Positions 60 through 27,681 of a stretch of 64,000 bases of DNA are shown here, in pieces. Position numbers and translations under genes: made by a program. This DNA comes from Oscillospiraceae bacterium. Its GTDB lineage: Bacteria; Bacillota; Clostridia; Oscillospirales; Oscillospiraceae. How positions within the stretch are numbered: position 1 is the first letter of the stretch; the number at the start of each line of letters is the position of its first letter. The notes beneath the pieces are model-generated. The model saw only the letters and a list, made by a program, of their open reading frames with translations, had not been told where the DNA came from and did not search any database. The DNA lies in contig JAFTYM010000004.1 of NCBI GenBank assembly GCA_017461585.1, positions 1 to 64,000 of the forward strand, in the 5' to 3' direction.

Positions 60-232
60 TTGATTCTATCACGAATTTATATTGGCAAAACTGCAAGCAC
101 TTAAAAAGATAGATTTTGTTCGTAAACGAGGCAGAAAAGCGATGTAATACTTGGTGTCTTACGAGCTTTGATAACGATGTTTACGGGCGAAGGATTTCTT
201 TTTAAGCTTATGTTTTCTTGTCGGGTACACCC
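60..232 (-). ncRNA. Copy 3 of a three-copy structured element, candidate RNA in 3' UTR
   Basis: The minus strand aligns along most of its length with the 5' part of the repeats at 12839 and 27405. Outer stem 100-127 pairs with 179-206 (CTTAAAAAG with CTTTTTAAG, CGTAAAC with GTTTACG). An inner stem pairs AAAGC at 136-140 with GCTTT at 165-169. The outer stem is CCCGAAAAG/CTTTTCGGG in the other copies, so both sides changed together. The loop block ACACCAAGTAT is kept. It lies just after the methyltransferase stop and just before a terminator. The second arm of the other copies is missing here. RNA function is inferred; I do not recognise a known class. Confidence 0.6.
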
Positions 233-252
233 TAATACGCAGGCTTTTGCTT

Positions 253-975
253 TTATCTTTCAACCTCTATAAGCACCAGCGGCTTTTCGTTGGGCATATA
301 GAGTGAGTATTTGGGGTGATCGATTTTCACAAGCTTGCTGTCCAAAAAGTCCTGTATGTCCTCTTCACGTTCAAACTTGTCATAGTGGTGCATAAAATCT
401 TCCGCGTCTTTTCGGTCAACAAAAACCTGACCGAATGGCGCTGTAAAAAATGTGGTTTTAAACTTAACACCGATGCTCTTTAAATATTCGATGTCCTCGT
501 TGCAGTACATCTCCTTCTCGCGCTTTCCGACAGAGGAAAAGCTGCGCTTGTCCGTTGCGTTTTCTACAAAAAACACCTTTTTCGCCCACATAAGACCGCG
601 ACCCAAAAAGTTCGGCACACCGCCGGCAAGGCAGAATATGGCGGCATCGTATTTTTCTTTCGGTGCGCCTGTATCGTCAAAATCTCCGCAGACGACGTCC
701 ACATTTGTGTGTCCGCGGCGAGCCATCTCCTCCTCCAGATAGAAAAGAGGCCTGGAGTTTAAGTCCATGGCAAAGACGTTTTTGCATTTGGGAGCTAAAT
801 GCATTGTAAGTGCACCCACACCGCAGCCAATATCGCAGACGGTTGGATTTTCAGGGAGAGATGCAAGTATCATCTCTGAAACCACAGAGTGAAAGGACTC
901 GTAATTCACGGCATTTATATACCACGCCATGCTCTTTTCGTCCCATGAATAAAGTCTCTCTCTTCCGCTGCTCAT
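253..975 (-). CDS. Class I SAM-dependent methyltransferase, cofactor-cluster associated
   Basis: 240 aa with a Rossmann-type SAM-binding motif I (VCDIGCGVGALT, about residues 45-57), an acidic strand-2 end (AMDLN) and a motif around GDFDD. It follows xdhC with an ATGA overlap on the minus strand, so the two are translationally coupled. A second methyltransferase starts the divergent operon at 2195. The substrate is unknown. The context (XdhC, NTP transferase, radical SAM, CoA ligase) points to maturation of a molybdenum or tungsten enzyme or to a small-molecule modification tied to it; this is inference. The start is supported by a purine-rich site upstream (GGGGAAGG). Confidence 0.75.
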   Translation of the reverse strand: MSSGRERLYSWDEKSMAWYINAVNYESFHSVVSEMILASLPENPTVCDIGCGVGALTMHLAPKCKNVFAMDLNSRPLFYLEEEMARRGHTNVDVVCGDFDDTGAPKEKYDAAIFCLAGGVPNFLGRGLMWAKKVFFVENATDKRSFSSVGKREKEMYCNEDIEYLKSIGVKFKTTFFTAPFGQVFVDRKDAEDFMHHYDKFEREEDIQDFLDSKLVKIDHPKYSLYMPNEKPLVLIEVER

Positions 976-2006
976 AATACCTTCCCCTTAGTTACCGCAA
1001 TTACCTCTGCCATTATGCTGACAGCTATCTCACTCGGAGTCTCCGCACCGATAGACAGACCGATGGGACATTTTACCTGACGCATTTTTTCCATGCTGTA
1101 GCCCTCTTTCTCAAGGCTTACATAGAGGGCATCGCGCTTTGTCTTACTGCCTATCATACCCAGATACAGGCACGGCTTATTAAGTGCCCATTTCAGAACT
1201 GTCTTATCGTGGGCGTGACCGCGTGTGATGATAAGGATATAGCTGCGCTCATCCGTGGGGAAGTCTTGCATATCAGTAAAGCTCTCGATGCAGACTGTGT
1301 CGCATTCGGGAAATCTCTCGGGATTTGCATATTCCTCGCGGTCGTCAATAACTGTCACGGGATAACCTAAATGAGAAGCAAGCTTTGCAACCTCAAAGGA
1401 TACATGACCACCTCCGAATATATACATTCTGCCGTTTGGATTTATATCATGCACGGTTATGCGCCAGCCGTCCACAAAATCTCCGTGTACCGCAACGCGG
1501 ACTGGATTTTTCAGCATTTCGCGGGAAAAGTGCTCATTTTCCTCAAACTCTCCCACAACCTCCGTGCCGCCAATATTTACGCAGCATGTAAAATCATTTT
1601 TGTTGCCATCGAAAATGTAGAAAATCCAGCTCTTTTTGCCCGACTTGTCGGCATTATAGGCAGCTTTAAACACATTTAACATATTCCCGTCGCTGCCGTC
1701 CACATACGCAACAAGCACCTCACAGGCACCTCCGCATATCATATCGGGCGTTGCATCTGCCTTTGCATACATATCAACTGCGCAGACTGTGGCGCACTTT
1801 TCGGGGATTATGCGTTTTCTTGCCTCCTCGATTATCTGAGCCTCCAAAAGTCCTCCGCCGATTGTAGCGAAGATAGAGTCCTCCGTGATTATCATTTTGG
1901 AGCCCTCTCCTCTGGGGGTTGAGCCTTCTTCTGCTATTATAACCGCAAGAGCGAAGCTCTGCTTATTTTCTAAAAGCTGTACTGCCTTTTCAAAAACTGT
2001 ATCCAT
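972..2006 (-). CDS. xdhC: XdhC/CoxI family molybdenum-enzyme maturation protein
   Basis: 344 aa. The N-terminal XdhC_CoxI domain shows GSTPRGEGSKM and CGGACEV; the C-terminal Rossmann domain has FGGGHVSFEVAK and the family signature PIGLSIGAETPSEIA. XdhC-type proteins bind molybdenum cofactor and help its sulfuration and insertion into xanthine-dehydrogenase-type hydroxylases. An upstream in-frame start at 2042 exists, but GGAGG sits at the correct distance from the ATG at 2006, so 2006 is chosen. The gene overlaps the downstream methyltransferase by ATGA. No hydroxylase structural gene is visible in the window, so the client enzyme must lie elsewhere or be unusual. Confidence 0.88.
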   Translation of the reverse strand: MDTVFEKAVQLLENKQSFALAVIIAEEGSTPRGEGSKMIITEDSIFATIGGGLLEAQIIEEARKRIIPEKCATVCAVDMYAKADATPDMICGGACEVLVAYVDGSDGNMLNVFKAAYNADKSGKKSWIFYIFDGNKNDFTCCVNIGGTEVVGEFEENEHFSREMLKNPVRVAVHGDFVDGWRITVHDINPNGRMYIFGGGHVSFEVAKLASHLGYPVTVIDDREEYANPERFPECDTVCIESFTDMQDFPTDERSYILIITRGHAHDKTVLKWALNKPCLYLGMIGSKTKRDALYVSLEKEGYSMEKMRQVKCPIGLSIGAETPSEIAVSIMAEVIAVTKGKVL

Positions 2007-2154
2007 AAACTTACCTCCATTTTTCTGAAGATATATTATCAATTTTTTGTACAGGACACAACATCAGGTTTAAAAACTCATTTAAAGTTACGAAAAATTG
2101 TTAGTTTTTACCGATTATAAGCGGTTTTCTACCTTTATATAGATATCTCAAATA

Positions 2155-2173
2155 TGATAAAATATTATTATCA
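2155..2173. promoter_or_regulatory. Candidate operator between divergent cofactor operons
   Basis: Inverted repeat TGATAA (2155-2160) and TTATCA (2168-2173) with a 7-bp AT-rich spacer, 20 bp upstream of the ATG at 2195 and between the divergent xdhC and methyltransferase genes. The region 2007-2194 is otherwise AT-rich with no further gene. The regulator is unknown; chance palindromes are common in AT-rich DNA. Confidence 0.3.
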
Positions 2174-2194
2174 AATATTCTTCGGAGACAGGCA

Positions 2195-2770
2195 ATGAGA
2201 AAACATCCCGACGGTGAAAACTTAACACGGGAGCTGATTGCCCTCGCATCTCTTCCTGAAAACGCCCGTATTTTAGACATGGGCGCAGGAGACGGCGAGG
2301 CTGTAGCTTTACTGCGCTCTTTTGGCTATGACGCTTACGGAGTTGACCTTGCAGCAGCAGAAAATGTAACGCAGGGAGACATGACCGCACTTCCCTTTGA
2401 GGACGGGATCTTTGACGCCGTTATAGCAGAGTGTGCCTTCTCCGTATGCGGAGATACGGAAAAGGCTTTCCGCGAGGCTTACAGAGTTCTTAAAGATAAC
2501 GGCACCCTCTGCATTTCCGATGTTTACTTTAAAAACGACACCGCCCCCTGCCTGTCCATGAAAATCCCTGCCACAAAAGAGGGCTGGGAAAATGCAGCAG
2601 AAGGCTTTGTTCTCATGAATTTTTGTGACCGTACAAAGGCGTGGACAGAGTTTATGATACATTGCATCTGGAACGGACTCGACCTTGGCGATTGCGGCTA
2701 TTTCAAATCCGCAGCAAAAGCAAAGGGCGGCTATTTTATCTCCGCATGGGAAAAGGAGGAGTGCAAATGA
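2195..2770 (+). CDS. Class I SAM methyltransferase, DVU_1556/TrsM-like
   Basis: 191 aa. SAM motif I is ILDMGAGDGEAV (about residues 26-37), followed by the acidic GVDLA strand and the motif-IV-like FDAVIAECAFS. The start is supported by GGAGA 6 nt upstream. It is the first gene of a rightward operon in which every junction is a 4-nt stop/start overlap: methyltransferase, NTP transferase-HD, radical SAM, CoA ligase. From memory this set matches the families named after Desulfovibrio vulgaris DVU_1551, DVU_1553 and DVU_1556 with radical SAM TrsS, which accompany selenium- and molybdenum-dependent hydroxylases. The reaction catalysed is not known to me. Confidence 0.75.
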   Translation: MRKHPDGENLTRELIALASLPENARILDMGAGDGEAVALLRSFGYDAYGVDLAAAENVTQGDMTALPFEDGIFDAVIAECAFSVCGDTEKAFREAYRVLKDNGTLCISDVYFKNDTAPCLSMKIPATKEGWENAAEGFVLMNFCDRTKAWTEFMIHCIWNGLDLGDCGYFKSAAKAKGGYFISAWEKEECK

Positions 2771-3837
2771 GCTATGCAGGAATAATCACCGCGGCAGGTC
2801 TCTCCTCGCGCATGGGCGATTTCAAGCCTCTTATGGAAATTAACGGTCTGCCCATGATAGCTCACACGGTTTTAAGCATGAAAAACGCAAATCTCGCCCC
2901 TGTCTGCGTCGTTGTAGGACACCGCGGAGACGAGATAAAGGCAGCGCTTTCCTCCTTTGACGTCATCTTTGCGGAAAACGAGAATTACGCTAATTCCGAT
3001 ATGCTGGCATCTGTAAAGCTGGGCCTTGAAAAGGTTAAAAACAGCGATGGATTTTTCCTTCTCCCAGGAGATATGCCCCTTATTCCGCCCGACACATTTA
3101 AGACGGTGCTAAGTGCTTCAGGCGACTATATCGTACCTACGGTCATGGGAAAAAGCGCTCACCCCCCTCTTATTAAAAAGGCGTGTTTCGATGCGATTTT
3201 GAGCTTTGACAGAGACGGAGGTCTGCCAAAAGCGCTGGCAGGCTTTGAAAAGGTACCCGTTGAGGCAGGAGATATTGACTCTAACCGTGATGCGGATTTT
3301 AAGCATGAATTTGATAAGCTCGCCGCTGTCGGCAAAAAGAGATTGGGGCTTTCTGAAGAGCTTTGCGTGAAAATTCTGAAAGACGCGGGCACACCTTCAC
3401 ATATTGCGGCACATTGCATGGCGGTGGGCAGTTTATCCAAGCACATTGCAAAAAAGCTCATAAAGTGCGGTTACTTTTTGGACGCCCAACTGTGCTTTTC
3501 TGCAGGTGCGCTGCATGATATAAAGCGTCTTGAGAAAATGCACGCCGAAGCAGGGGCAGACTATCTTCGCACTTTGGGATATGACGCTGTGGCAAACATT
3601 GTCTCTCACCACATGACAGCTGAAAACTTAAGCGCAGATTTTAACGAAACGACCGTTGTTTTCTTAGCCGACAAGCTCATGCGGGAGAGAGAATTTGTAA
3701 CACCCGATGTGCGCTATGCACCCGCTCTGGAGAAATTCCCCGAAGGAAGCGAAACGGGGATGCGAATTAGAAAAGATCTTGCATTTTCCAAAATGCTTTA
3801 CGAAAAATATATCAGCCTTACAGGTGATGCCTTATGA
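2767..3837 (+). CDS. MobA-like NTP transferase fused to HD domain, DVU_1551-like
   Basis: 356 aa. Residues about 1-190 form a MobA/MocA-type nucleotidyltransferase (AAGLSSRMGDFKPL nucleotide loop, PGDMPLIPPDT metal-binding region); residues about 200-355 form an HD phosphohydrolase-like domain (HIAAHCMAV, ALHDIKRL, VSHHM). MobA-like enzymes join GMP or CMP to molybdopterin, so a cofactor-tailoring role is likely. The start at 2767 overlaps the preceding stop (ATGA) and has GGAGG 6 nt upstream; a longer frame from 2641 has no such support. The HD half could hydrolyse a nucleotide product, but that is inference. Confidence 0.85.
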   Translation: MSYAGIITAAGLSSRMGDFKPLMEINGLPMIAHTVLSMKNANLAPVCVVVGHRGDEIKAALSSFDVIFAENENYANSDMLASVKLGLEKVKNSDGFFLLPGDMPLIPPDTFKTVLSASGDYIVPTVMGKSAHPPLIKKACFDAILSFDRDGGLPKALAGFEKVPVEAGDIDSNRDADFKHEFDKLAAVGKKRLGLSEELCVKILKDAGTPSHIAAHCMAVGSLSKHIAKKLIKCGYFLDAQLCFSAGALHDIKRLEKMHAEAGADYLRTLGYDAVANIVSHHMTAENLSADFNETTVVFLADKLMREREFVTPDVRYAPALEKFPEGSETGMRIRKDLAFSKMLYEKYISLTGDAL

Positions 3838-5135
3838 AAACCATTAACAAAACAAAAAGCGTATGCCCCGTCTGTCTTAAAACTATCGACGCATATTTAG
3901 TCGAAAAAGATGATGGCATTTATATGGAAAAGGAGTGCACAGAGCACGGTCATTTTTCTGTCCTCGTTTGGGAAGATGACGCGGTAAGCTACAAAAACTG
4001 GGACCGCGGCAACAAGAAAAAGGATAAAATCATCGACCCCAAGACAGATAAAAACCTCGAAGGCTGCCCTTACGATTGCGGTCTTTGCGAGGACCATGTG
4101 AGAAGCACCTGCTGTGTCCTGCTGGAGATAACACAGCGCTGCAACCTTAATTGTCCCGTGTGCTTTGCCTCGGCAGGCGGAGCATGTCCTTCTGACCCCA
4201 CCCTTGATGCTTTGGGAGAGAGCATGGATATGCTCATGCGAAAGGGCGGACCTTTCAATCTGCAGCTTTCAGGCGGCGAGCCTACGGTTCGCGATGACCT
4301 GCCCGAAATAATCAAAATGGGCAGGGAAAAAGGCTTTACGTTTTTCCAGCTGAACACCAACGGCATTCGTCTTGCCGACGATGAGACTTACGCAAAAAAG
4401 CTTAAAAGCGCAGGTCTTTCCTGCGTATTTCTGCAGTTTGACAGTCTTTCCGACAAGGTCTACAAGATTTTGCGTGGAAAGCCATTGCTTATGAAAAAGC
4501 TGAAAGCTATCAAAAACTGTGCCGATGCAGGACTTGGCGTTGTCCTTGTACCCGTTATCGCACCGGGAATCAACGATAATGAAATCGGCACACTTATAAA
4601 GTTTGCCGAGAAAAACATGCCCCATGTGCGCGGTGTACATTTCCAGCCCATAAGCTATTTCGGAAGATGCATCCCTATGGCAGATAAACGCATCACAATC
4701 CCCTATATGCTGCGACAGATAGAGTGGCAGACGGATAAACGCTTTAAAAAAGCAGACTTTGCAGGAGGCGGTGCGGAAAATCCCTACTGCTCTTTCCACG
4801 CAGAGTATCTTAAGAAAAAAGACGGTAGCCTGAAGCTTTTAAAGTCCTCCTCATCCTGCTGCTGCACCACCTCCAAAAAATCCCGCGAGAACGTGGCAAG
4901 GCAATGGAAGGGCGGCGCGGACATCGTAGCCGAAGCAGGCACAATGGACGCCTTCGTAAAAGACACATTGGACAATACTCTCGCCATTTCGGGCATGCTG
5001 TTTCAGGATTGCTTCAATCTTGATTTAGACCGCCTTAAACGCTGTTATATCTGCGAGGTTGACCCCAGATACGGGCTTGTTCCTTTCTGCGCCTACAACC
5101 TCACAAATATTGACGGCAAGAGCATTTACAGGTGA
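3834..5135 (+). CDS. Radical SAM protein, TrsS-like
   Basis: 433 aa. The radical-SAM motif CNLNCPVC (CX3CX2C, about residues 103-110) would bind the [4Fe-4S] cluster that cleaves SAM; LSGGEPT follows as the usual GGE motif. Extra cysteines lie at the N terminus (CPVC, residues 11-14), near CPYDCGLC (about 78-85), in a triple-Cys stretch near residue 340 and at the C terminus (CYICEV, PFCAYN), suggesting further metal sites. Relatives are annotated radical SAM (seleno)protein TrsS, in which one of these cysteines can be selenocysteine; here the frame is fully open and uses Cys only. ATGA overlap with the preceding gene. Confidence 0.82.
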   Translation: MKTINKTKSVCPVCLKTIDAYLVEKDDGIYMEKECTEHGHFSVLVWEDDAVSYKNWDRGNKKKDKIIDPKTDKNLEGCPYDCGLCEDHVRSTCCVLLEITQRCNLNCPVCFASAGGACPSDPTLDALGESMDMLMRKGGPFNLQLSGGEPTVRDDLPEIIKMGREKGFTFFQLNTNGIRLADDETYAKKLKSAGLSCVFLQFDSLSDKVYKILRGKPLLMKKLKAIKNCADAGLGVVLVPVIAPGINDNEIGTLIKFAEKNMPHVRGVHFQPISYFGRCIPMADKRITIPYMLRQIEWQTDKRFKKADFAGGGAENPYCSFHAEYLKKKDGSLKLLKSSSSCCCTTSKKSRENVARQWKGGADIVAEAGTMDAFVKDTLDNTLAISGMLFQDCFNLDLDRLKRCYICEVDPRYGLVPFCAYNLTNIDGKSIYR

Positions 5136-6322
5136 AAACTATGCACAAAGTACCACTGGAAGACCTTATAGTAAGGCAGGAGGACATGCCCTTTTTCTCC
5201 CGTAAGCTTTTAGAAAAGCACCAACTGGAACTGCTTAACACCCAGCTTAAGCGGGCAAAGGCGGTATCTCCTTTTTATAAATACTATCCCGACAAAGTGG
5301 CTTCCCTTGAAGAGCTGAGCACTCTGCCCTTTATTACGGCGCAGGAGCTGAGGGAAAACTACTCCAAACTGTGCCTTTCCTCTCTTGAGGAGCTTACAAG
5401 AGTCCGCACGGAGTACACCTCCGGAACAGTAGGCGCGCCTAAGAAAATGGCGTATTCCGACTACGATTCAGCGCGCACCACAGAGTTTTTTGCAAATGGC
5501 TTAGCTGAGCTGATTTTCCCCGGTGACAAAGTTATAATATGCTTTCCTTATACAGATAGCTTAAGTCTCGGCGGTCTTATCGGCGAGGCGGTAAGGCGCA
5601 TCGGCGCCGTTCCCCTGCTTCCGGGACACGACAGAAGCTACGGCGAATTTTTGGATATTATCCGTGAAAATGAGGCAAACGTCTACCTCGGACCTCCCGT
5701 GCTGCTGCTGTCTCTTTTAAGACTTCAGCCTGATACGACACTCAAACGCGCCTTAGTCAGCGGAGACCATTGCAGCGAAACTGTTTTGAGCTTCTGTGAG
5801 GAGATTCTGGGCAGCAAGCTGTTTCCCCACTACGGTCTGCGCGAATCAGGTCTTGGCGGAGCTTACACCTGCACAGCTCATGCCGGTATGCACATAAGAG
5901 AAAACGACATGATTTGCGAGATCATAGACGAAACAGGCTCACCTTTACCCGACGGAGACTGGGGTGAGCTTGTAATCACCACCATAGGCCTTGAGGCAAT
6001 GCCCCTTTTCCGCTACAGGACAGGAGATTTCGCAAGAATTCTTGAGGGGACATGCCCCTGCGGAAGTGAGGTCAAGCGCCTTGAGGTTATGGGAAGAATT
6101 TCCAAAAATGCCGTCATGGGTCATTATGAGGATATTCTTTTCGGCTTTGACAATATAATTGACTTTCATATATCCGATAATTCTGTTATACTGTCAGTCA
6201 GGGACAATGACAGCGAACTGATGTCTGCTGTACAAAAGCATCTGCGCGGCTTTGATGTGAAAATGATTACAGCAAAGCTCACAGACCGCCCTATGTATAC
6301 AGGCAAAAGACGCATACTTTAA
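5132..6322 (+). CDS. AMP-dependent CoA ligase-like protein, DVU_1553-like
   Basis: 396 aa from a GTG that overlaps the radical SAM stop (GTGA); an ATG at 5141 with AGGTG 6 nt upstream is an equally plausible start. The adenylate-forming signature TEYTSGTVGAPKKM (about residues 91-104), HYGLRESG and FRYRTGDFA resemble phenylacetate-CoA ligase family proteins. Such enzymes activate a carboxylate with ATP. The sequence is shorter than typical phenylacetate-CoA ligases (about 430 aa). It is the last gene of the tightly coupled operon; 21 bp separate it from the HAD gene. The substrate is unknown. Confidence 0.78.
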   Translation: MKTMHKVPLEDLIVRQEDMPFFSRKLLEKHQLELLNTQLKRAKAVSPFYKYYPDKVASLEELSTLPFITAQELRENYSKLCLSSLEELTRVRTEYTSGTVGAPKKMAYSDYDSARTTEFFANGLAELIFPGDKVIICFPYTDSLSLGGLIGEAVRRIGAVPLLPGHDRSYGEFLDIIRENEANVYLGPPVLLLSLLRLQPDTTLKRALVSGDHCSETVLSFCEEILGSKLFPHYGLRESGLGGAYTCTAHAGMHIRENDMICEIIDETGSPLPDGDWGELVITTIGLEAMPLFRYRTGDFARILEGTCPCGSEVKRLEVMGRISKNAVMGHYEDILFGFDNIIDFHISDNSVILSVRDNDSELMSAVQKHLRGFDVKMITAKLTDRPMYTGKRRIL

Positions 6323-6343
6323 ATATAGAAAGGAACTTTTGAC

Positions 6344-7006: not shown

Positions 7007-7069
7007 CTATATACATTTCATCAAATCGGATATAAAATAGCAGTATAAAATCAGAGAGGAAGTTGTCTC

Positions 7070-7570: not shown

Positions 7571-9606
7571 GTGAAATGCGTTACGGATATGTAGGCAAAA
7601 TTGCCCGAATCAACCTTACAACAAGCACTGTGGAAATGATCTCCACATTTGACTATGTTCCCGAGTATATCGGCGGCAGACTGGTCTGCAACAAGATCTT
7701 CTGGGACAACGTCAAGCCCGGCACAGGTGCCCTTGACCCCGAAAATATGCTTATCTACATGACAGGTGCAACTACCGCAACGGGTATCCCCACAGGCGGC
7801 CGCTCCGTCTTTACAGGCATCTCCCCCAACAGCTTCCCCGAGCAGTACGTCTGGTCAGGTATGGGCGGTTGGCTTGGTGCCGAGCTGAAATTTGCAGGCT
7901 TTGACGGTTTTATCATCGAGGGTAAGGCAGAAAAGCACACATATATCTACATAGAAGACGGTAAGGTAGAGCTTCTTCCTGCCGACGATTTGTGGGGTCT
8001 TATGGTACACCCCACACAGAAAAAACTTGAGGAAAAGCACGGCAAGGACGTTAAGAGCATGGTTATCGGCCCTGCAGGTGAAAACCTTATGCGAAACGCT
8101 ACCGTCACCACAAGTAACGACAGCGTAGCTGCAAAGGGCGGCTTCGGCGCTGTTTTCGGCTCCAAGAACCTAAAGGCTATCACCGTCCGCGGTCACGGCG
8201 TTGTCCGCCCCTATGACATTGACAAGCTTTTCGAGCTTCGTATGAAGATGGCAAATCCCACCATGCGCCCCTGCCCTGTTGTCCGTGAGGCAACTCACGG
8301 TATGGACGGCAACATGATCCCTGTTGAGGGCGGCTGGCTGCGCGGTCAGGTAGCCTGCAGCCACGGCTGCAACCAGCATTGCAACCGCCTTATGATGGAC
8401 ATGAAGTCCGCATTTTCCGACGAGCGCATCAATCAAGTTGAAAAGTGCGTCGGTATCTTTGCCTACGGCTATCAGGAGGACTGCTCATGGTCTCCCATCC
8501 AAAACTTTGAGACAGAGCGCAACCACTTCCTGCCCTGCAAAATGCTGAGTATGGAAAATCCTCCCCCCGATTTTGAAGACCCCTACGCACCTGAGCTGTT
8601 TAAGCAGGTAAGAGGCGACATTGTAAACTTCTGGAAGCCCGACTTTGACAAGGGCAGCGTCATGATGGATATGTGCAACCAGTACGGCATCGACAAGTGG
8701 GATGTTATTGTATGGTTCATGACATGGCTGTCCATGTGCAAACAGGAAGGCTTACTTGAGGACATGGACTTCGGCATGGAAGTCGACGTTGAAAACGAGG
8801 AGTTTGTAAAATACTTCCTCGATATGATAACCTACCGCAAGGGCAAATACGGTCCTATCTTTGCCGAAGGCATGGCAAGAGCCATCAGGACTTTAGGCAA
8901 GGAAAAGTTCGGCGACAGCATCTATCACGGCAGATATTCCCAGATGATAAATAAGCCGCTTGACCTGCCCGTAAGCCTTGAGACAGCATGGGGACACAGC
9001 TTCCATTGGCAGGGCCGAGGCTTTGAGGGCTCTATCTACAAGGCTGGCTGGGTAGCACACTCTCTCGAGCTCATGACCAGCACCCGCGATATTATGACCA
9101 TCGCCCACTTCCACGACGATTATGAAAACTTCCTTAAATACAGAGACGACCCCTATCACAGCCGCGAGCTTGTTGATGCGGTCATCTTCAACGAAAACAA
9201 GGCAGAGCTTAAAGACAGCGTCACCACATGTGAGTGGCAGAGTCCCGACATCTACTGGCCCGACATGGAGGCTCAGATGTATGAAGCTGCAACAGGTATC
9301 CCCACCACTCAGGAAGACCTTGACTTTGCTTCCGAAAGAAGCCGCCTTATCTTCCGTGCGATTCTGATAAGAAACTTCGGCAGAACTCGTGAGATGGAAG
9401 TTAACGCCGTTTTCCCCGCGCTGACAATTCCCGACACCTTCGGTGAAGTTGCCACATGGGAAGAGTGGAACGACCTTGTTGACCTTTACTACGAAGTAAA
9501 GGACTGGGACAAGGAGACAGGCTGGCCCACAAGAGAGGTCTACGAAAAGTACGGACTTAAATACATTGCCGATGAGCTTGAAGCTCTGGGCAAGTTACCT
9601 CAGTAA
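7567..9606 (+). CDS. Aldehyde:ferredoxin oxidoreductase family tungsten enzyme
   Basis: 679 aa, longer than the roughly 605 aa of Pyrococcus AOR. The N-terminal AOR fold is clear: GYVGKIARINL, PTGGRSVFTG, GAELKFAGFDGFIIEG and GAVFGSKNLKAI. Family members bind a tungsten bis-pyranopterin and one [4Fe-4S] cluster. The expected cluster motif appears as CSHGCNQHC (CX3CX3C), not the classical CX2CX3C. The start at 7567 overlaps the ferredoxin stop and has GGAGG upstream; an open frame from 7504 is an extension without support. The reaction could be aldehyde or carboxylate interconversion, or reduction of an aromatic or acyl-CoA substrate; not resolvable here. Confidence 0.85.
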   Translation: MSEMRYGYVGKIARINLTTSTVEMISTFDYVPEYIGGRLVCNKIFWDNVKPGTGALDPENMLIYMTGATTATGIPTGGRSVFTGISPNSFPEQYVWSGMGGWLGAELKFAGFDGFIIEGKAEKHTYIYIEDGKVELLPADDLWGLMVHPTQKKLEEKHGKDVKSMVIGPAGENLMRNATVTTSNDSVAAKGGFGAVFGSKNLKAITVRGHGVVRPYDIDKLFELRMKMANPTMRPCPVVREATHGMDGNMIPVEGGWLRGQVACSHGCNQHCNRLMMDMKSAFSDERINQVEKCVGIFAYGYQEDCSWSPIQNFETERNHFLPCKMLSMENPPPDFEDPYAPELFKQVRGDIVNFWKPDFDKGSVMMDMCNQYGIDKWDVIVWFMTWLSMCKQEGLLEDMDFGMEVDVENEEFVKYFLDMITYRKGKYGPIFAEGMARAIRTLGKEKFGDSIYHGRYSQMINKPLDLPVSLETAWGHSFHWQGRGFEGSIYKAGWVAHSLELMTSTRDIMTIAHFHDDYENFLKYRDDPYHSRELVDAVIFNENKAELKDSVTTCEWQSPDIYWPDMEAQMYEAATGIPTTQEDLDFASERSRLIFRAILIRNFGRTREMEVNAVFPALTIPDTFGEVATWEEWNDLVDLYYEVKDWDKETGWPTREVYEKYGLKYIADELEALGKLPQ

Positions 9607-12335: not shown

Positions 12336-12821
12336 ATGTTACTTGGAATAGCAGTCGCTGTGGCTGCTGTGACCGCGTGTGCATTTTGGCGTGTCATACA
12401 CCTGTCTGCCAAAACAAAAGCGTCTACCTCACATTCATCAGACCTTGTCCCGCTGACAACAGTTTCTATTTTTAATACATCTTCCGCATCAGTCATTGAC
12501 AACACGGTATATACAGATATCTCCGGTAATAATACAATTATCGGCACTTACAGCTTCGACCACTTTAATTCTGAAGGCGCCGCAGTTTTTACAGTGCGGT
12601 GCAGAGGCACAATTGTCGGTACAATAACGGAATGTGAACTTGTATGTACTGCTGTCATCACCTGCACGCACAGCAGCATCAAAGCAACTCACTCTTTTAA
12701 CATATCAAGCGGCACCATACGCGATCATGTGCACCATGAAACTGTCGCAGAATACAAAGGCAATTCAATTGCCGCCTCTGCAGCTTTTATATGTCTAACT
12801 GTTTCTGATAATTCCGTGTAA
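12336..12821 (+). CDS. Hypothetical small membrane-anchored protein under XRE control
   Basis: 161 aa, not recognised. One N-terminal hydrophobic segment (LLGIAVAVAAVTACAFW, residues 2-18) is followed by a Ser/Thr/Val-rich, probably beta-rich region with several cysteines (VRCRG, ECEL, VCTAV, ITCTH). GGAG lies 8 nt before the ATG at 12336, and a good promoter with operators lies about 85 bp upstream; a TTG at 12252 would sit before the transcription start. Codon use is less regular than in neighbours and other frames are partly open, so it could be spurious. The stop overlaps the left arm of the split terminator at 12820. Confidence 0.45.
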   Translation: MLLGIAVAVAAVTACAFWRVIHLSAKTKASTSHSSDLVPLTTVSIFNTSSASVIDNTVYTDISGNNTIIGTYSFDHFNSEGAAVFTVRCRGTIVGTITECELVCTAVITCTHSSIKATHSFNISSGTIRDHVHHETVAEYKGNSIAASAAFICLTVSDNSV

Positions 12822-12836
12822 TAAAAAGCTCCCACT
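12820..12836. terminator. Left arm of a terminator split by a repeat element
   Basis: AATAAAAAGCTCCCACT is the exact inverted partner of AGTGGGAGCTTTTTATT at 13122-13138. Joined, they form a standard bidirectional terminator between the rightward ORF ending at 12821 and the leftward gene ending at 13152. The 279-bp element now lies in its loop. Confidence 0.75.
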
Positions 12837-12838
12837 TT

Positions 12839-13117
12839 AGGCGCGGTGAGACAAGAAAGCATATGCCCGAAAAGCAATCTTTTACCCGTAAGCATTGTTA
12901 TTTAAACTTGACATACACCAAGCATGTCTGCGTTTAAATGCCTCGCTTACAGGCAAAATCTTAACTTTTCGGGTGCAAGCAGTTTAGAAACTTAAAATTT
13001 TTGTTATCACGAAATGAAAAGCACAGGAAATACTTGTTTGTATTTCCGAGCATTTTCATGATGTGAGAGCGTAAATTTTTGTTTCTAAACCATATGTATT
13101 CTTATCTCACCGCGCCT
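12839..13117 (+). repeat. Copy 1 of the cloverleaf-like structured repeat
   Basis: Terminal inverted repeats: AGGCGCGGTGAGA at the left, TCTCACCGCGCCT at the right, continuing imperfectly to CATATG. Arm A: 12866-12893 pairs with 12945-12973, with inner stem ATTTAAAC (12900-12907)/GTTTAAAT (12932-12939). Arm B: GTTTAGAAAC (12982-12991)/GTTTCTAAAC (13081-13090), with an inner 20-bp imperfect hairpin 13014-13033/13040-13059. TTTAG flanks both sides (12836-12840 and 13117-13121), a possible 5-bp target duplication. There is no convincing ORF inside. Confidence 0.8.
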
Positions 13118-13121
13118 TTAG

Positions 13122-13138
13122 AGTGGGAGCTTTTTATT
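13122..13138. terminator. Right arm of the split terminator
   Basis: AGTGGGAGCTTTTTATT, perfect inverted partner of 12820-12836; see that entry. Termination for the flanking genes may be altered because 285 bases separate the arms. Confidence 0.75.
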
Positions 13139-13151
13139 ATGCAAAATGTTT

Positions 13152-18732: not shown

Positions 18733-18741
18733 TACTTCTTT

Positions 18742-19302: not shown

Positions 19303-19309
19303 AACATTA

Positions 19310-20821: not shown

Positions 20822-20856
20822 ATGCTTCACATCCGTTTCAAAATTATATTGCAAAC

Positions 20857-20885
20857 ATTATACGTTTTTGCGCCTGCATAGTCAA
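20857..20885 (-). promoter_or_regulatory. Promoter of nnr-gerS-like-alr operon
   Basis: Minus-strand TTGACT (20880-20885), a 17-bp spacer, TATAAT (20857-20862). The -35 and its upstream A-rich sequence lie in a 24-bp block (20879-20902) identical to the one at 22032-22055. Confidence 0.8.
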
Positions 20886-20909
20886 TTTTTTGTTGTCCTT
20901 TAAAAATAA

Positions 20910-20952
20910 AACTGTCACGGACCACAAATTATCCCTGTGTTCCGCGACAGTT
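20910..20952 (-). terminator. Terminator after acyltransferase
   Basis: AACTGTC with GACAGTT, plus inner GGA/TCC pairing, followed on the minus strand by TTTTATTTTT. Confidence 0.7.
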
Positions 20953-20958
20953 ATCATC

Positions 20959-21981: not shown

Positions 21982-22009
21982 CACACTCACCCCAAGATTT
22001 CTTTTAATC

Positions 22010-22038
22010 ATTATAAGTTTCTAATTACCCGTAGTCAA
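22010..22038 (-). promoter_or_regulatory. Promoter of the acyltransferase gene
   Basis: Minus-strand TTGACT (22033-22038), a 17-bp spacer, TATAAT (22010-22015). The -35 and upstream region fall in the 24-bp block 22032-22055 shared exactly with the nnr promoter. Confidence 0.8.
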
Positions 22039-22103
22039 TTTTTTGTTGTCCTTTATATAATAATATGGTATAAATTACTTATTGAAATTTCGGAGGTAAT
22101 CCT

Positions 22104-22325
22104 ATGTATATGCCCACCTATGCAGACGCGCTGGAATTAAAACGCTATTTAAAAGAACGTGACCTTCAGTATGTCCACTTCCACGACCAGTGCGGCAGCA
22201 CATTTTTCAGCTTTGACGAATATGACGAGGCTACAGTAAATGCCGTGTTTGAGTATTACGCACCTAAAGGCCTGAAGCCCAGCTTTACAGAGGACAAGCT
22301 GCGCTTTATCATTATGGAGGTCTGA
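22104..22325 (+). CDS. Small hypothetical protein
   Basis: 73 aa, soluble, with a conserved-looking centre YVHFHDQCGSTFFSFDEYD and a C-terminal KLRFIIMEV strand. GGAGG lies 7 nt before the ATG, and the next gene starts 3 nt after its stop, so it is real and co-transcribed. I do not recognise the family; small proteins of this pattern occur in Clostridia without known function. Confidence 0.68.
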   Translation: MYMPTYADALELKRYLKERDLQYVHFHDQCGSTFFSFDEYDEATVNAVFEYYAPKGLKPSFTEDKLRFIIMEV

Positions 22326-22327
22326 AC

Positions 22328-22639
22328 ATGAAAAATCAGAAAGCAAAGCAGCTCGCCTTTATTTTATGCATGGTAGGCGCAGGTCTTCTTATGATTGGCT
22401 ACGCCGTAGGCGGCAAGGGTTACGCCATCGGCACTCCCATGCTCATCGTGGGCGCAGTTATGTTCGCATCCACACTGGGCTTTCTTATGGTCAAAAAGAA
22501 AGAGCCAAAATTCTGCCCCAAGTGCGGTATCCGCGCATCTGACCTGTACATCCGTCAGAACAAAAAGCGTTTCGGCAAATACACCTGCCCCAAGTGCTCT
22601 TCCCATTTAGAGCCCAAGCCCCGTACAACAACCAAATAA
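22328..22639 (+). CDS. Two-TM protein with C-terminal zinc ribbon
   Basis: 103 aa. Two membrane segments (LAFILCMVGAGLLMIGYAV and MLIVGAVMFASTLGFLMV, about residues 9-27 and 38-55) are followed by a zinc-ribbon-like CPKCG...CPKC pair (about residues 65-88) and a basic tail on the presumed cytoplasmic side. GGAGG overlaps the end of the previous gene. Function unknown. A strong terminator follows. Confidence 0.68.
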   Translation: MKNQKAKQLAFILCMVGAGLLMIGYAVGGKGYAIGTPMLIVGAVMFASTLGFLMVKKKEPKFCPKCGIRASDLYIRQNKKRFGKYTCPKCSSHLEPKPRTTTK

Positions 22640-22642
22640 ATT

Positions 22643-22673
22643 AAAACAGGAGGGATTTTCCCTCCTGTTTTTT
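22643..22673. terminator. Bidirectional terminator between convergent genes
   Basis: AAAACAGGAGGGA/TCCCTCCTGTTTTTTT hairpin with a very short loop. Confidence 0.88.
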
Positions 22674-22676
22674 TAT

Positions 22677-23393
22677 TTACCACATTTTAATTACAGCCGC
22701 TATGCCGCGATTTCCGAAAATGGCGGTGCAATGCTTCTCATCCTCGCGGTAATATCCGCTCTTTACGGTCTCGCCCACCTTGACCTCATTTTTGTACGTT
22801 ACGGTCATGTCGCTGCACTCGCCCTTTTCAAAAACCTCCTCGGGAAGCATCTCCAGAGCCATGTCCAGATAGTTTAAGTTGTGCATGTGACCGATGATAT
22901 CCGTATCGCATCTTCTGACGCGAAACTCCAGCATGCTTTCAAAAGATTCAGGAACTGCTGCTCTGTCGGGCTTCCACTCTTCAAAAACAGCTGTGGGGTC
23001 GCTGTCATACAGTTCGTTCATGGAAGGATCGATTCTTGCAATTCTGCGGGAATTTATATCAATTACGGACCACTTGGAGGAAGCAACGGCACGGATATTG
23101 CCCTTTTCGTCTATGAGCCTGAAATCTCTGTAGGCATGGGCGCGCTCCATGCTGCGGGACCATGTCTCAACCGTCAGCCTTGCGCCGTATTCGGGTCTGT
23201 CTGTTACCTTAAGCTTCCACGACATGATTATCCATGCTGTGCCGTTTTCGTCGATTTTTGCAACACCGTTGTCTACAGAATCAGAGTGGAATCCTGCTGT
23301 ATCCTCAAACATTTTCAAAATGGCTTTATTGGTAATTTTACCCTTCTGGTCAAGGTCTCCCAAGCCAACGCTGTATTTTTCCGTAAAAATCAT
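22677..23393 (-). CDS. Acyl-ACP thioesterase (FatA/FatB family)
   Basis: 238 aa, double hot-dog layout. The first half has YSVGLGDLDQKGKIT and WIIMSWKLKV, the second RRCDTDIIGHMHNLNYLDM, with the Asn/His catalytic region typical of bacterial acyl-ACP thioesterases. It releases fatty acids from acyl carrier protein. GGAG lies 9 nt before the ATG at 23393; a TTG at 23408 is part of that site and rejected. It is monocistronic. Confidence 0.85.
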   Translation of the reverse strand: MIFTEKYSVGLGDLDQKGKITNKAILKMFEDTAGFHSDSVDNGVAKIDENGTAWIIMSWKLKVTDRPEYGARLTVETWSRSMERAHAYRDFRLIDEKGNIRAVASSKWSVIDINSRRIARIDPSMNELYDSDPTAVFEEWKPDRAAVPESFESMLEFRVRRCDTDIIGHMHNLNYLDMALEMLPEEVFEKGECSDMTVTYKNEVKVGETVKSGYYREDEKHCTAIFGNRGIAAVIKMW

Positions 23394-23546
23394 TGTTTTG
23401 TTCTCCAAAAAATTTTATTCCGTTTTATGCAATTTGCTTACTGTTTGAGTTACATAATACAACATTTAGATATTACTTGTCAAACGACCGCTAAATCGTC
23501 GATTTTTGCTCAAAACTTCATTTTTGTCATCAAATAGTTTCAAATA

Positions 23547-23575
23547 TTGACAAGACGTGTAATTTTTTGTATTAT
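23547..23575 (+). promoter_or_regulatory. Promoter of the glucosaminidase-cohesin pair
   Basis: TTGACA (23547-23552), a 17-bp spacer, TATTAT (23570-23575), in the 274-bp AT-rich gap before 23668. Nothing else with a clear structure was seen in that gap. Confidence 0.75.
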
Positions 23576-23667
23576 ATTTGTTACTTATAATGTGATATTG
23601 TGCCATTATTGGACACTTTCGCAATATGGCTTAAAATACGCCAAAAATCCTCAACGGGAGGGATTTT

Positions 23668-25752
23668 ATGATCCTGCAAAAATTACACTCTCCTATCTTT
23701 AATAAGGCTGCCCGCTGCGTTATCACCGTGGTTCTCACAGTTGCCATGATGATTGCGCTGGTACCCGTCTTCTCCTTTGACGCTTTTGCGGCATATGAGA
23801 CAAAGTACGGCACCATAACCATCAGCAGCGGTTATCTCAACGTGCGCGCCTCTGCAAACTCAGGCGGCGATATTGTTGGCAAGCTGAGAAAGGACGACAC
23901 CGTCACCATCGTCGGCGAGGAGACAGACTCTGCCGGCACGGTCTGGTATAAAATCGAATACATCAGCAGCGTCGGAGAGCACGGATATGTAAGCAGCAAG
24001 TTTGTTACACTGACAACTCCCGAAGTTCCCGAGGTCGATCCCGATGAGGGCGATGAAGAGGAGAACGTACCGGACGAAGGCACCGATACCCCCGAAACAG
24101 GCGGTGAAGAGACGGACGAGCCACTCTACATAACAGACTTTGAGGCATGGATGGAGCAGCAGGGCTTCCCTGAAGACTATAAAGACGGACTGCGCGCACT
24201 CCACGAAAAGTACCCCAACTGGGTATTCAAGGCAGACCACATCAAATACGATTGGGAGACTATTTTAGCCGCTCAGATGAAGCTCAAGGTCAGCCTTGTT
24301 GAAAACACCTTCCCCTCCTCATGGAAATCCACGCAGGCAGGCGCTTACGACTGGGAAAAGAGTGAGTGGATCCCTCTGGACGGCACACGTTGGGTTCAGG
24401 CTTCCCGTGAGATCATCGAGCACTATTTAGACCCCAGAAACTTCCTTGACAGCAACACCATATTCCAGTTCTTGGAGCAGGGCTTTGACGAAGACGTACA
24501 TACTCTCCAGGTCGTTCAGTCAATGCTCAAGGGCACATTTATGGCAGGCAATCTGCCTGACGAAGATATCTCATACGCGCAGCTTATTTTTGATGTTTCA
24601 AAAGAGAATGACGTTAACCCCTGTGTTATCGCATCTATGATCCTCATAGAGCAGGGCACAACAGGCAGCGCTCTCTGCAGCGGCAAATATCCCGGTTACG
24701 AGGGCTACTACAACTACTTTAACTACAACGCATACGGCACAAATCCCGTTGCATCAGGCCTTGCATACGCAAAAACAAAAGGCTGGAATTCAGCCAGAAA
24801 ATCTATCACCGCAGGTATCGAAAGCTTTGCCGAGGGTTACGTTTCCGTCGGTCAGAGCACTCTTTACTACAAGAGATTTGACTTCGTGGGCGACCCCTTC
24901 ACTCACCAGTACAGCCAGAGCGTATACAGTCCCAAGGTAGAGGGCGAGAGAGCGGCAAAGGGCTATACTGAGGAGATGAGACAGGCAACGCTCACCTTCA
25001 CAATTCCCGTTTACACAGGAATGCCCGAGACAGCATGCGTAAAACCCACAGGAGACGGCTCTCCCAACATCAAGCTCTCCTCTCTTACCGTAGAAGGCTT
25101 TGAGCTCACTCCCGAATTCATGCCCGATACATTAGAATATACTCTGGTCGTTCCCGCAGGAACTTCCTCTGTAAATATCACAGCTGTCACCATGGACACC
25201 GCAGCAAAAACTGCGGGAGCAGGCAAGGTCGAGCTGCCCGAGGTTGAAAATACTGTCACCGTAACAGTAACAGCCGAAAACGGCGACACAAGAGATTACG
25301 TTCTCACCATCGCCAAGGAAGCTCCCGAAGTGGGCGGAATTGATTTCTCAGGAAACTACGCCATGTCAGGTACATATATTATGGCAGCCCCCGGAACTAC
25401 CGTTGAGGCCATGACAGGCAACCTCTTAAATTCCGGAAGCGCCATTATCACCCTCAGCGGCGGTTCTTCCAAGGAAATCACCGATATTCTTATGACCGGT
25501 GACAAGGTACTGATATACGACGAAAATGACGAAGCTCTGGGCGTATACGTTGTATGCGTCATCGGCGATGTAACCGGCGACGGAAAAATCACCTCAGGCG
25601 ACTGCATCAAGACAAGAAACCACATGCTGAACAAGGGTACTCTTGAGGGAGTTTCCTTTGCAGCAGCCGATGTTACAGGCGACGGAAAAATCATGTCAGG
25701 CGATGTTATCAAGATCCGCAACCACATGTTAGGCAAATCACAGTTAAGTTAA
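23668..25752 (+). CDS. Secreted dockerin-bearing glucosaminidase with SH3 domain
   Basis: 694 aa. Signal peptide about 1-42; bacterial SH3 (YLNVRASANSGGDIVGKL) about 48-112; acidic linker 113-148; glucosaminidase domain about 150-450 with the likely catalytic Glu in MILIEQGTTG; cadherin-like sandwich about 470-560; dockerin type I about 630-694 with two calcium loops (DVTGDGKITSGD and DVTGDGKIMSGD), each followed by an RNHML helix. The enzyme class cuts GlcNAc-MurNAc bonds in peptidoglycan. GGGAGGGA precedes the ATG. The next gene, 17 bp on, encodes a cohesin-type membrane protein, the expected binding partner. Confidence 0.85.
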   Translation: MILQKLHSPIFNKAARCVITVVLTVAMMIALVPVFSFDAFAAYETKYGTITISSGYLNVRASANSGGDIVGKLRKDDTVTIVGEETDSAGTVWYKIEYISSVGEHGYVSSKFVTLTTPEVPEVDPDEGDEEENVPDEGTDTPETGGEETDEPLYITDFEAWMEQQGFPEDYKDGLRALHEKYPNWVFKADHIKYDWETILAAQMKLKVSLVENTFPSSWKSTQAGAYDWEKSEWIPLDGTRWVQASREIIEHYLDPRNFLDSNTIFQFLEQGFDEDVHTLQVVQSMLKGTFMAGNLPDEDISYAQLIFDVSKENDVNPCVIASMILIEQGTTGSALCSGKYPGYEGYYNYFNYNAYGTNPVASGLAYAKTKGWNSARKSITAGIESFAEGYVSVGQSTLYYKRFDFVGDPFTHQYSQSVYSPKVEGERAAKGYTEEMRQATLTFTIPVYTGMPETACVKPTGDGSPNIKLSSLTVEGFELTPEFMPDTLEYTLVVPAGTSSVNITAVTMDTAAKTAGAGKVELPEVENTVTVTVTAENGDTRDYVLTIAKEAPEVGGIDFSGNYAMSGTYIMAAPGTTVEAMTGNLLNSGSAIITLSGGSSKEITDILMTGDKVLIYDENDEALGVYVVCVIGDVTGDGKITSGDCIKTRNHMLNKGTLEGVSFAAADVTGDGKIMSGDVIKIRNHMLGKSQLS

Positions 25753-25769
25753 TTTAACGAGGTCCCCAA

Positions 25770-27299
25770 ATGAAAAAAATTCTCAAAAATACAATAACCC
25801 TTCTGCTTACCTGCTGCATTCTGGTTTCAATGCTCTGCATCCCCGCTTTTGCAGCTAACGGAAACATCACCTTTTCTGACCCCTCCGTTATCGTAGGCAA
25901 CAATGTAAATGTTACTGTAAAGGTCGGCGACGCAATATCCATGTGCGATATCCTGCTCTCCTATGACCCCAGCCAGCTTGAATTTATCAGCGGCTCGGGA
26001 ATGGAAATCTCCGGCAGCGGCGGTACTGTTCACATAAACGGATACAACGGCTCAGGCGCAGGCACATTCTCCTGCACATTGACCTTTAAAGCTCTTAAGG
26101 TCTGCTCTGCCAAGATCACAGTTTCCTACTATGATATGGTAGACGACAACGGAGATAACGTTGCAAGCCACATCGGCTCCTCTACAGTTACAATTTCTAA
26201 TCCCCCTACAGCTTCTTCCGATGCCACATTGAAAGCTCTGAGCATCAGCCCCGGCACCCTCTCCCCCAGCTTCTCCTCAGGAACTACAAGCTACACAGCA
26301 ACAGTTTCCTCTTCCACAACGAAGCTGAACGTTTCTGCCACAAAAAATGACTCCAAGGCATCTGTTTCCGTTTCCGGAACATCCCTTAAGGTCGGCAGCA
26401 ACAAGGTAACGGTAACCGTAACAGCTGAGGACGGCACAAAGAAAACCTACACCATCACAGTTACACGTCCTGCCGCAACCATCGCTCCCGATACAGGCAA
26501 CAACCCCGGCGGCACTCCCGATACAGATGTTCCCGAAGTAACAGAGGAGGCATACATCTCTTTGGTTGACGGCGGCATCCTTGAGGTATCAGAGACTATC
26601 GACGAGGATAAAGTTCCCGCAGGCTTCCTGCTCACTGAGACAACCGTTGAAAATCTTACGGTTGACGCCATTTTCTACGGCGAGAACACAGATCCTGCCG
26701 TATGGCTCATCGGTGATGACAACAACCCCTCCGGCTTCTACTTCATAAACGAGGAAGGTCTGGGCTATCCCATGGTTACTCTCACCCAGCCCACAGGCGG
26801 CATCATCATGATAGACAACGCCTCTCAGAGCGCACCTGACGGCTACATCCCCGGCAAGTTCGCCATCGGCGAGACCGAGTACGACGCCTTTATAAAAGAC
26901 GACGGCAAGGATCCCGACCACTGCCTTGTATACGGCATCAACTCCGAAGGCGAGACAGTTCTCTACTGCTATGACCCTGCAGAGGGCACATTCCAGAAGT
27001 TCGGCATCTCATCCTCCGTTGAGATAAAAGAGGTAATAAAAGAGGTTGAAGTAGAGGTCGTGAAAGAGGTCGAGGTTCCTGTTGAAGTTCCCGCAGAACC
27101 CGAAGAGATCACACTTGCCACTATGCTTAAGAACAAAATGGTATTCTGGATCGCTATTGCAATCGGCGTTGTAATTCTTGTTCTCATCGTACTGTGCATT
27201 ATGCTCGGCATTATGTACTCACGCAAGAGCAAGGCTTGCCAGCTCATGGCATCCAAGAGAAGCTTCAACACTGAACCCCTTCCCACAATAGAAGAGTAA
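25770..27299 (+). CDS. Membrane-anchored cohesin-domain protein
   Basis: 509 aa. Signal peptide 1-28; cohesin-like domain about 32-145 (ITFSDPSVIVGNNVNVTVKV, LLSYDPSQLEFISG, TLTFKAL); cadherin-like sandwich about 152-236; an unrecognised domain about 265-425; a Glu/Val/Lys stalk (EVEVEVVKEVEVPVEVP); one membrane segment (FWIAIAIGVVILVLIVL) near 460-480 and a short cytoplasmic tail. The topology puts cohesin outside the cell. It shares the cadherin-like domain and operon with the dockerin glucosaminidase, so it likely tethers that enzyme; binding itself is inference. Confidence 0.8.
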   Translation: MKKILKNTITLLLTCCILVSMLCIPAFAANGNITFSDPSVIVGNNVNVTVKVGDAISMCDILLSYDPSQLEFISGSGMEISGSGGTVHINGYNGSGAGTFSCTLTFKALKVCSAKITVSYYDMVDDNGDNVASHIGSSTVTISNPPTASSDATLKALSISPGTLSPSFSSGTTSYTATVSSSTTKLNVSATKNDSKASVSVSGTSLKVGSNKVTVTVTAEDGTKKTYTITVTRPAATIAPDTGNNPGGTPDTDVPEVTEEAYISLVDGGILEVSETIDEDKVPAGFLLTETTVENLTVDAIFYGENTDPAVWLIGDDNNPSGFYFINEEGLGYPMVTLTQPTGGIIMIDNASQSAPDGYIPGKFAIGETEYDAFIKDDGKDPDHCLVYGINSEGETVLYCYDPAEGTFQKFGISSSVEIKEVIKEVEVEVVKEVEVPVEVPAEPEEITLATMLKNKMVFWIAIAIGVVILVLIVLCIMLGIMYSRKSKACQLMASKRSFNTEPLPTIEE

Positions 27300-27304
27300 A
27301 TTTA

Positions 27305-27336
27305 AACCTCCGTATCAAATGATACGGAGGTTTTTT
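27305..27336 (+). terminator. Terminator after the cohesin gene
   Basis: AACCTCCGTATC/GATACGGAGGTT hairpin with a 4-nt loop followed by TTTT. Confidence 0.9.
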
Positions 27337-27355
27337 GTTGGTACTGATAATAACT

Positions 27356-27392
27356 ACGTCATGCCTGCGGCGCCATACTTTTCTTTGTTTGA
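27356..27392 (+). repeat. Left half of a second hairpin repeat family
   Basis: The sequence from GTCATGCC to CTTTGTTTGAA resembles the first half of the repeat at 54548-54603. An inverted, longer relative lies at 27690-27748, so the cloverleaf copy at 27405 is bracketed by inverted members of this family. Confidence 0.5.
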
Positions 27393-27404
27393 AGCCCCTC
27401 TTTT

Positions 27405-27681
27405 AGGCGCGGTGAGACAAGAAAGCATATGCCCGAAAAGAAATCTTTTACCCGCAAGCATCGTTATTTAAGCCCCTTGACACCAAGTATGTCTGCGCTT
27501 AAATGCCTCTCTTACAGGCAAAATCTTAACTTTTCGGGTGCAAGCAGTTTAGAAACTAAAAATTTTTGTTATCACGAAATGAAAAGCACAGGAAATACTT
27601 GCCTGTATTTCCGAGCATTTTCATGATGTGAGAGCGTAAATTTTTGTTTCTAAACCATATGTATTCTTATCTCACCGCGCT
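27405..27681 (+). repeat. Copy 2 of the cloverleaf-like structured repeat
   Basis: Same order as copy 1: terminal AGGCGCGGTGAGA and TCTCACCGCGC, arm A (CCCGAAAAG 27432-27440 with CTTTTCGGG 27530-27538), inner stem ATTTAAGC (27466-27473)/GCTTAAAT (27497-27504), and arm B with the inner 20-bp hairpin. The inner stem shows a compensatory A-T to G-C change relative to copy 1. One mid-stem pair is broken (CGCAAGC opposite TCTTAC), so this copy has started to decay there. It lies downstream of the cohesin gene on the same strand, after its terminator. Confidence 0.8.

Follow-up and report, generated by a model that had tools for sequence, protein, structure and literature searches.

What is the structured sequence that recurs three times in the first 64,000 nucleotides of contig JAFTYM010000004.1 of an Oscillospiraceae bacterium? 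This stretch, hereafter the window, opens contig C3 of a metagenome-assembled genome (MAG) labelled G000, which spans 2.07 Mb in 54 contigs and is 79% complete. The original prediction, made from the sequence alone, described three copies with stems that change on both sides and called them a candidate novel RNA. All three copies are indeed present with their covarying stems. However, we find that they are copies from two families of ~280-bp folded elements resembling miniature inverted-repeat transposable elements (MITEs), that is, a dispersed repeat with terminal inverted repeats and not a lone RNA gene. Our analysis indicates that these elements are probably non-autonomous mobile DNA that targets the loops of transcription terminators and spares termination.

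Anatomy and distribution of the two families

Both plus-strand copies in the window belong to family 1: a complete two-arm element of 279 bp at 12839-13117 and a second one at 27405-27682. The minus-strand copy belongs to family 2, which has different ends. The locations originally given were right, with the boundaries shifted slightly; the minus copy, placed at 60-232, begins at 233 and runs past the contig start at base 1, so that what remains is a truncated element at 1-233 with arm A at 88-212.

Each element consists of terminal inverted repeats enclosing a three-way junction with two arms, and one strand folds into a Y. The order is first end, arm A, an 8-nt linker, arm B and second end. 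Specifically, in the 12839 copy the left terminal repeat lies at 12839-12865 (plus), arm A, which is the structure seen originally, at 12866-12973 (plus), the linker at 12974-12981 (plus), arm B at 12982-13090 (plus) and the right terminal repeat at 13091-13117 (minus). In both families the ends have the form AGG...(C)CT within a long inverted repeat. The fold z-scores of copies with their flanks were -13.3 and -18.5 for the two strands of family 1 and -15.1 for family 2.

R1, a covariance model that we derived from 29 arm A sequences, matches the 12839 copy at 12860-12985 on the plus strand and finds arm B on the opposite strand, at 12970-13096 (50.1 bits) and, in the second copy, at 27538-27661 (46.2 bits), as it does in some relatives. 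The arm is itself almost palindromic, and in the minus copy R1 recognises the other strand of arm A as well (37.8 bits); the opposite-strand matches to arm B hence support, without alone proving, that arms A and B are inverted relatives. The linker is either TGCAAGCA or its exact reverse complement, TGCTTGCA, and both versions occur in both families (examples are window positions 12974-12981, with TGCAAGCA, and loci L004, L030 and L033). Such alternation resembles the outcome of recurrent local inversion via a hairpin, or of exchange among copies.

The stems of arm A are largely as first described. The outer stem reads CCCGAAAAG/CTTTTCGGG at 12866-12874/12965-12973 and in the 27405 copy, and CTTAAAAAG/CTTTTTAAG in the minus copy; the middle stem is GTAAGC/GCTTAC in the 12839 copy versus GTAAAC/GTTTAC in the minus copy; and the inner stem is ATTTAAAC/GTTTAAAT in the 12839 copy versus ATTTAAGC/GCTTAAAT in the 27405 copy. 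In place of the single broken pair that had been reported, we read two broken middle-stem pairs in the 27405 copy, and the earlier numbering of the copies was not consistent. The loop ACACCAAG(C/T)AT, described as constant, is shared by all three window copies but varies in the wider family, with most family 2 copies carrying ACATACAGTAT.

The elements have terminal inverted repeats, lack coding capacity, are shorter than about 300 bp and are dispersed at unrelated sites, as MITEs are. A family 1 query gave at least 41 matches in the own genome (best 40 of 47 candidates scored) and a family 2 query at least 114 match rows (best 40 of 97 candidates scored). Of the first 40 rows, taken as the main family 2 matches, 27 have a boundary no more than 5 bases from a contig end (the length of contig C37 was not seen), and contigs with a family 2 copy at an end include C1, C6, C10, C11, C14, C19, C24, C39 and C40, among others. 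Two such contig-end matches may be halves of one copy. These repeats thus mark many of the contig ends in this MAG, and other assemblies may be broken by them as well. Outside the window, family 1 comprises two full-length elements (L002 and L004), an internally shortened one of 230 bp (L005), a degenerate 166-bp element (L011/L078, G000:C47:27606-27770) and five 48-bp copies that consist of the two ends alone. The degenerate element abuts family 2-end-like sequence followed by a terminator-like hairpin, and locus L061 (G000:C15, ~8140-8228) is a chimera in which arm B of family 2 is fused to the right end of family 1, without arm A.

The covariance-model search of related genomes proposed with the original prediction returned many relatives. 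With the best 8 or 11 candidates scored per genome, R1 matched 106 of the 400 genomes searched in the host's family, representing 54 of 106 genera, and 33 of 295 genomes of the order, across 12 families including the host's own. The relatives fall into two main types, two-arm elements of ~280 bp and one-arm elements of ~165 bp, with intermediates such as a 204-bp form in G467. The one-arm relatives in G258 and G330 (L297-L326) are ~163 bp long with ends TAGGGC...GCCCTA, and their pattern matches reach tens per genome. Genome G016, of another genus, carries end pairs just 41 bp apart (L284 and L290), that is, end-only copies.

Residence in host terminator loops

Where do the elements insert? 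We scored the best stem between the two flanks of each copy for which both ends match the end patterns and both flanks lie on the contig, allowing 0-7 unpaired bases per side, and used flanks taken from different copies as controls. A stem score of at least 20 was counted as loop residence. By this measure, 35 of the 40 testable full two-arm copies are nested in the loop of a terminator-like host hairpin: 10/10 for family 2 in the own genome, 10/10 for g13 (G016, G204, G253) with G353, 4/4 for G099, 9/11 for g36 (G039, G426, G444, G461) with G618, both misses being G618 copies, and 2/5 for the own family 1. Four of the five end-only 48-bp copies are also in loops, as are 2 of 6 copies of the 204-bp G467 form and none of 17 one-arm elements (16 from genus g30, one from G306). 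Mismatched flanks reached the threshold in 2.2-15.5% of cases for the two-arm sets, 0% for end-only, 16.7% for G467 and 1.1% for one-arm copies. The permutation p was 5e-5, the floor for 20000 shuffles, for the three largest two-arm sets; it was 0.042 for G099, 0.047 for family 1, 0.015 for end-only copies, 0.068 for G467 and 0.49 for one-arm elements. Judged by eye only, copies in G344, G169, G184, G320, G512, G483 and G038 also lie within such stems. Since the stems vary between copies, they are not part of the element. Altogether, nesting in terminator loops is well supported for family 2 and most of the tested relatives, and more weakly for family 1.

In the window, the 12839 element is one of the two family 1 copies in loops. 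It is enclosed by a 20-nt terminator-like host stem of score 44, with the left half at 12819-12838 and the right half, with a T-tract, at 13120-13139. The 27405-27682 copy lies outside terminator loops (stem score 6) and is flanked by terminator-like hairpins at 27304-27333 and 27778-27801, seen in a simple terminator scan that would miss a stem split by 280 bp. Next to the family 2 copy, the sequence AAAAGCCTGCG at 238-248 on the minus strand, read by eye, may be half of a host terminator stem whose other half lies beyond the contig.

To compare such sites with element-free ones, gene ends matching 15 flank pieces from 9 sites were searched for with a joined query in 8 genomes. At the L213 site of G016, the matching gene is followed by a plain terminator without the element in the congeners G291, G253 and G204; at the end-only L070 site, the same holds in G004, of the same genus, and in G291, of another genus. 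From one species to another these terminators have different sequences, and for this reason the exact target and any duplication of it are not visible.

Many of the elements carry terminator-like hairpins of their own. A fixed rule asked for a stem of 6 or more, 4 or more G-C pairs in it, a loop of 3-10 and then a T-run. By this rule, strong hairpins occur on both strands of 14 of the 17 two-arm representatives, a set that includes two g13 copies and two G618 families. In 11 of these 14 it is the same hairpin on both strands, lying opposite the arm to which R1 gives its best score, and in three (L190, L215 and L365) the strands use different arms. Internal terminators are weak in G184, G320 has one weak match on one strand, and none of five one-arm representatives has any internal terminator-like hairpin.

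These observations suggest a sequence of events in which an enzyme supplied in trans would recognise the folded ends or arms, and the element would be inserted where a terminator loop exposes a run of T or A, while the terminator stands as an extruded or single-stranded DNA hairpin. Being self-paired and usually equipped with a terminator, the element would leave the gene end still terminating, and its insertion would be cheap. It is very improbable that insertion is instead random and that mostly the copies in terminator loops survived. Gene ends do tolerate insertions, and 5 of the 40 two-arm copies lie outside detected terminator stems, but one-arm relatives persist outside terminators in 17 of 17 cases; moreover, with loops making up, by our own rough estimate, a few per cent of intergenic DNA, 10/10 by survival alone would be unlikely.

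Covariation in folded DNA or in RNA

The claim that the secondary structure is selected or maintained is strongly supported by covariation in larger alignments. In alignment A4 (80 arms fitted to the model, 78 of them distinct), 90.0% of the cells pair, 28 of 29 pairs show two-sided changes, and two-sided cells number 638 versus 180.7 in shuffles; the covariation score is 0.668, versus 0.156 when shuffled and at most 0.113 when slid. RNAalifold, run on A5, an alignment of 50 rows made from sequence alone, predicts 31 pairs, and two-sided changes are seen at 29.

What the pairs are made of bears on whether the fold is maintained as RNA or as DNA. Selection on a one-strand RNA should favour G-U over A-C. 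Across the 29 pairs, the cells are 1853 Watson-Crick, 124 G-T, 91 A-C and 128 other, and G-T is the commonest type at two pairs. Excluding those two, the counts are 1807 Watson-Crick, 27 G-T, 88 A-C and 124 other, and A-C drops to 49 when the poorly aligned pair 68/90 is also excluded. Because G-U is not favoured over A-C outside two positions, the pairing fits folded DNA and behaves like DNA complementarity at most positions. This supports a folded-DNA origin of the pairing but is not proof of it, as insertion in both orientations could mask a G-U bias. Compensatory changes would then mainly reflect selection acting on the DNA hairpin, or repair that runs through it.

It is quite unlikely that the element is a structured RNA, such as a regulator or small RNA, with a fold selected as RNA and spread as a repeat. 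Strong covariation, very stable folds and the two positions that are often G-U would fit such an RNA, as would the conserved unpaired columns of arm A (12 of 67 unpaired columns conserved at >=90%, versus 6 of 58 paired columns). Against this stand the excess of A-C over G-T in the mostly Watson-Crick pairs, the terminal inverted repeats, the existence of end-only copies, and the lack of any promoter-like site found around the two plus copies in the window. The Rfam comparison, a check suggested at the outset, returned no match to the elements at gathering scores in a search of the window, and in searches at E up to 2 on 17 element loci the matches that overlapped the elements fell far under the gathering scores of their families. 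A known RNA family was rejected on these scores. Group IIC introns insert next to terminators, and such an intron was likewise rejected, as no intron family appeared in the Rfam searches and ~280 bp is too short for a reverse transcriptase.

Mobilisation, known systems and neighbouring features

Identical dinucleotides adjoining the element, AA or TT, occur at 8 of 10 family 2 copies, 6 of 10 copies of g13 with G353, 4 of 5 family 1 copies and 4 of 5 end-only copies, and at 0 of 4 in G099; mismatched controls give 17-38%. In one-arm copies the dinucleotides are never identical (0/17); the left-hand flank is T in all 17, and the right-hand flank is A in 16. The AA/TT flanks are consistent with insertion at a run of T or A, or with a short duplication.

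Among the matches listed for the own genome, end-only matches lie within main copies or 48-bp forms, except for a few degenerate single ends. Of the 30 g13 loci examined, 14 contain both ends at 267-277 bp and 2 contain both at 41 bp; the remaining 14 show one end, close to where a contig stops. For one of the two families in the near-closed G618, 5 forward and 5 reverse ends are all paired at ~275 bp. Ends shared with an autonomous insertion sequence (IS) were thus not found among the matches listed for the own genome (79% complete), g13 and G618, which are short copies only, and we accordingly call the elements MITE-like. The original prediction had named a match to an IS end as a reason to abandon it; the ends do resemble those of MITEs, but no IS with such ends was found.

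An ordinary MITE moved by an IS5- or IS630-like transposase of the DDE type, with a preference for cruciform or terminator DNA, is possible, though we consider it doubtful. The long terminal inverted repeats are what such a MITE would have, and the T and A flanks of one-arm copies, like the AA/TT flanks of family 2 and g13, would suit it. However, the flanks of two-arm and one-arm copies differ, and no autonomous copy with such ends was seen among the matches listed. An IS630-like partner was rejected, as the own genome (79% complete) contains no DDE_3 match; other DDE families were not searched.

A narrower form of the mobile-DNA reading, which we think unlikely, makes the mobiliser a single-strand Y1 (HUH) transposase of the REP-associated (RAYT) kind that acts on the hairpin arms, with the element being a large counterpart of REPINs. 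Y1_Tnp matches occur in 6 of the 8 element-bearing genomes searched, including the own, and proteins of G000, G016, G099 and G618 resemble NCBIfam REP_Tyr_transpos at 66-74 bits, below the cut-off of 80; the own-genome protein is weakly similar to the solved TnpArep 4er8 (E 0.0014). The RAYT-like gene lies ~2.1 kb from the nearest copy in G618 and ~4.4 kb from an element in G099, and the two inverted arms recall REPINs. On the other hand, the G467 and G444 matches score as ordinary Y1_Tnp, neither G039 (98% complete, 10 R1 matches) nor G204 has a Y1_Tnp match, and R1 finds nothing in six Y1_Tnp gene loci of up to 3.4 kb. In addition, the four RAYT-like genes (L388, L390, L387 and L389) each carry a different structure, an inverted pair of palindromes preceded by GTAG, inside the coding sequence.

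Several results weigh against terminator-targeting mobile DNA as we propose it. Loop residence is only 2/5 for family 1, to which two of the three window copies belong, and 2/6 for the G467 form, and the window family 1 element L001 has no strong internal terminator. The gene-end matches rest on one flank, that of the left gene, with no exact empty site seen; the right flank of L213 was found in G204 alone, on a different contig, and the third site, L190, is mixed, with a hairpin in G291, none clear in G253 and a contig edge in G204. Over all 29 pairs G-T (124) exceeds A-C (91), owing to two positions. Any target duplication is putative; the matches listed for the own genome (79% complete), g13 and G618 include neither an autonomous copy nor a partner transposase; and none of the four other species of the genus has an R1 match among the best 8 candidates per genome. 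The more ambitious proposal of an order-wide family that unites structure-read terminator targets, loop insertion, a two-strand replacement terminator, an enzyme acting on folded single strands and DNA-level covariation of the Y fold is plausible, though we stop short of calling it probable.

How does the element compare with known systems? Bacterial MITEs such as RUP, NEMIS, ERIC, Nezha and QMITE2 (PMC3733652, PMC10969869) are likewise short, non-coding and dispersed, with terminal inverted repeats and stable folds; the elements here differ in their two related inverted arms on a three-way junction, their residence in terminator loops, their embedded two-strand terminator and the lack of any partner IS found. 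SPRITE of Streptococcus pneumoniae is described as one 18-bp duplex followed by a U-rich tract (PMC3049150). It, too, is a small repeat that has terminator-like properties, and its copies are overrepresented between convergent genes, but the element here is larger and lies inside a host terminator. Repetitive extragenic palindromic (REP) sequences are described as measuring 20-40 bp and bearing a GTAG or CGTC tag (PMC3733652 and PMC6006769). REPs and REPINs with their RAYTs share with our case palindromic units in inverted pairs and RAYT-like genes in several hosts; in contrast, the present element is ~280 bp, has inverted-repeat ends and no GTAG or CGTC tag by eye, and is absent from the RAYT-like loci examined. 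IS elements that target REP palindromes, for example ISPpu9 (PMC8450116; see also PMC1525189), also use a DNA hairpin as the insertion target. Group IIC introns are alike in this respect; unlike our elements, these systems are autonomous or ribozymes, and their targets are the REP or the terminator flank rather than the loop. In the literature covered, which leaves out most subscription journals, we recognised nothing as terminator-loop insertion or as this element.

If terminator targeting is true, mobile DNA would find shelter in terminator loops, which would offer it a common, structure-defined target where insertion is near neutral, and the element would be remodelling gene ends genome-wide. 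It would also point the way to an enzyme that recognises hairpins by their shape. Natural covariation that looks DNA-driven would, in addition, be a caution for RNA discovery based on covariation.

The window holds one further relative, a degenerate element at 48889-49116 on the plus strand (R1 30.5 bits, E 2.4e-4, at 48910-49037), with ends placed by eye. It lies directly downstream of a T-box leader (Rfam RF00230, 140.7 bits) and its terminator, at 48652-48861 on the plus strand, and upstream of the next gene.

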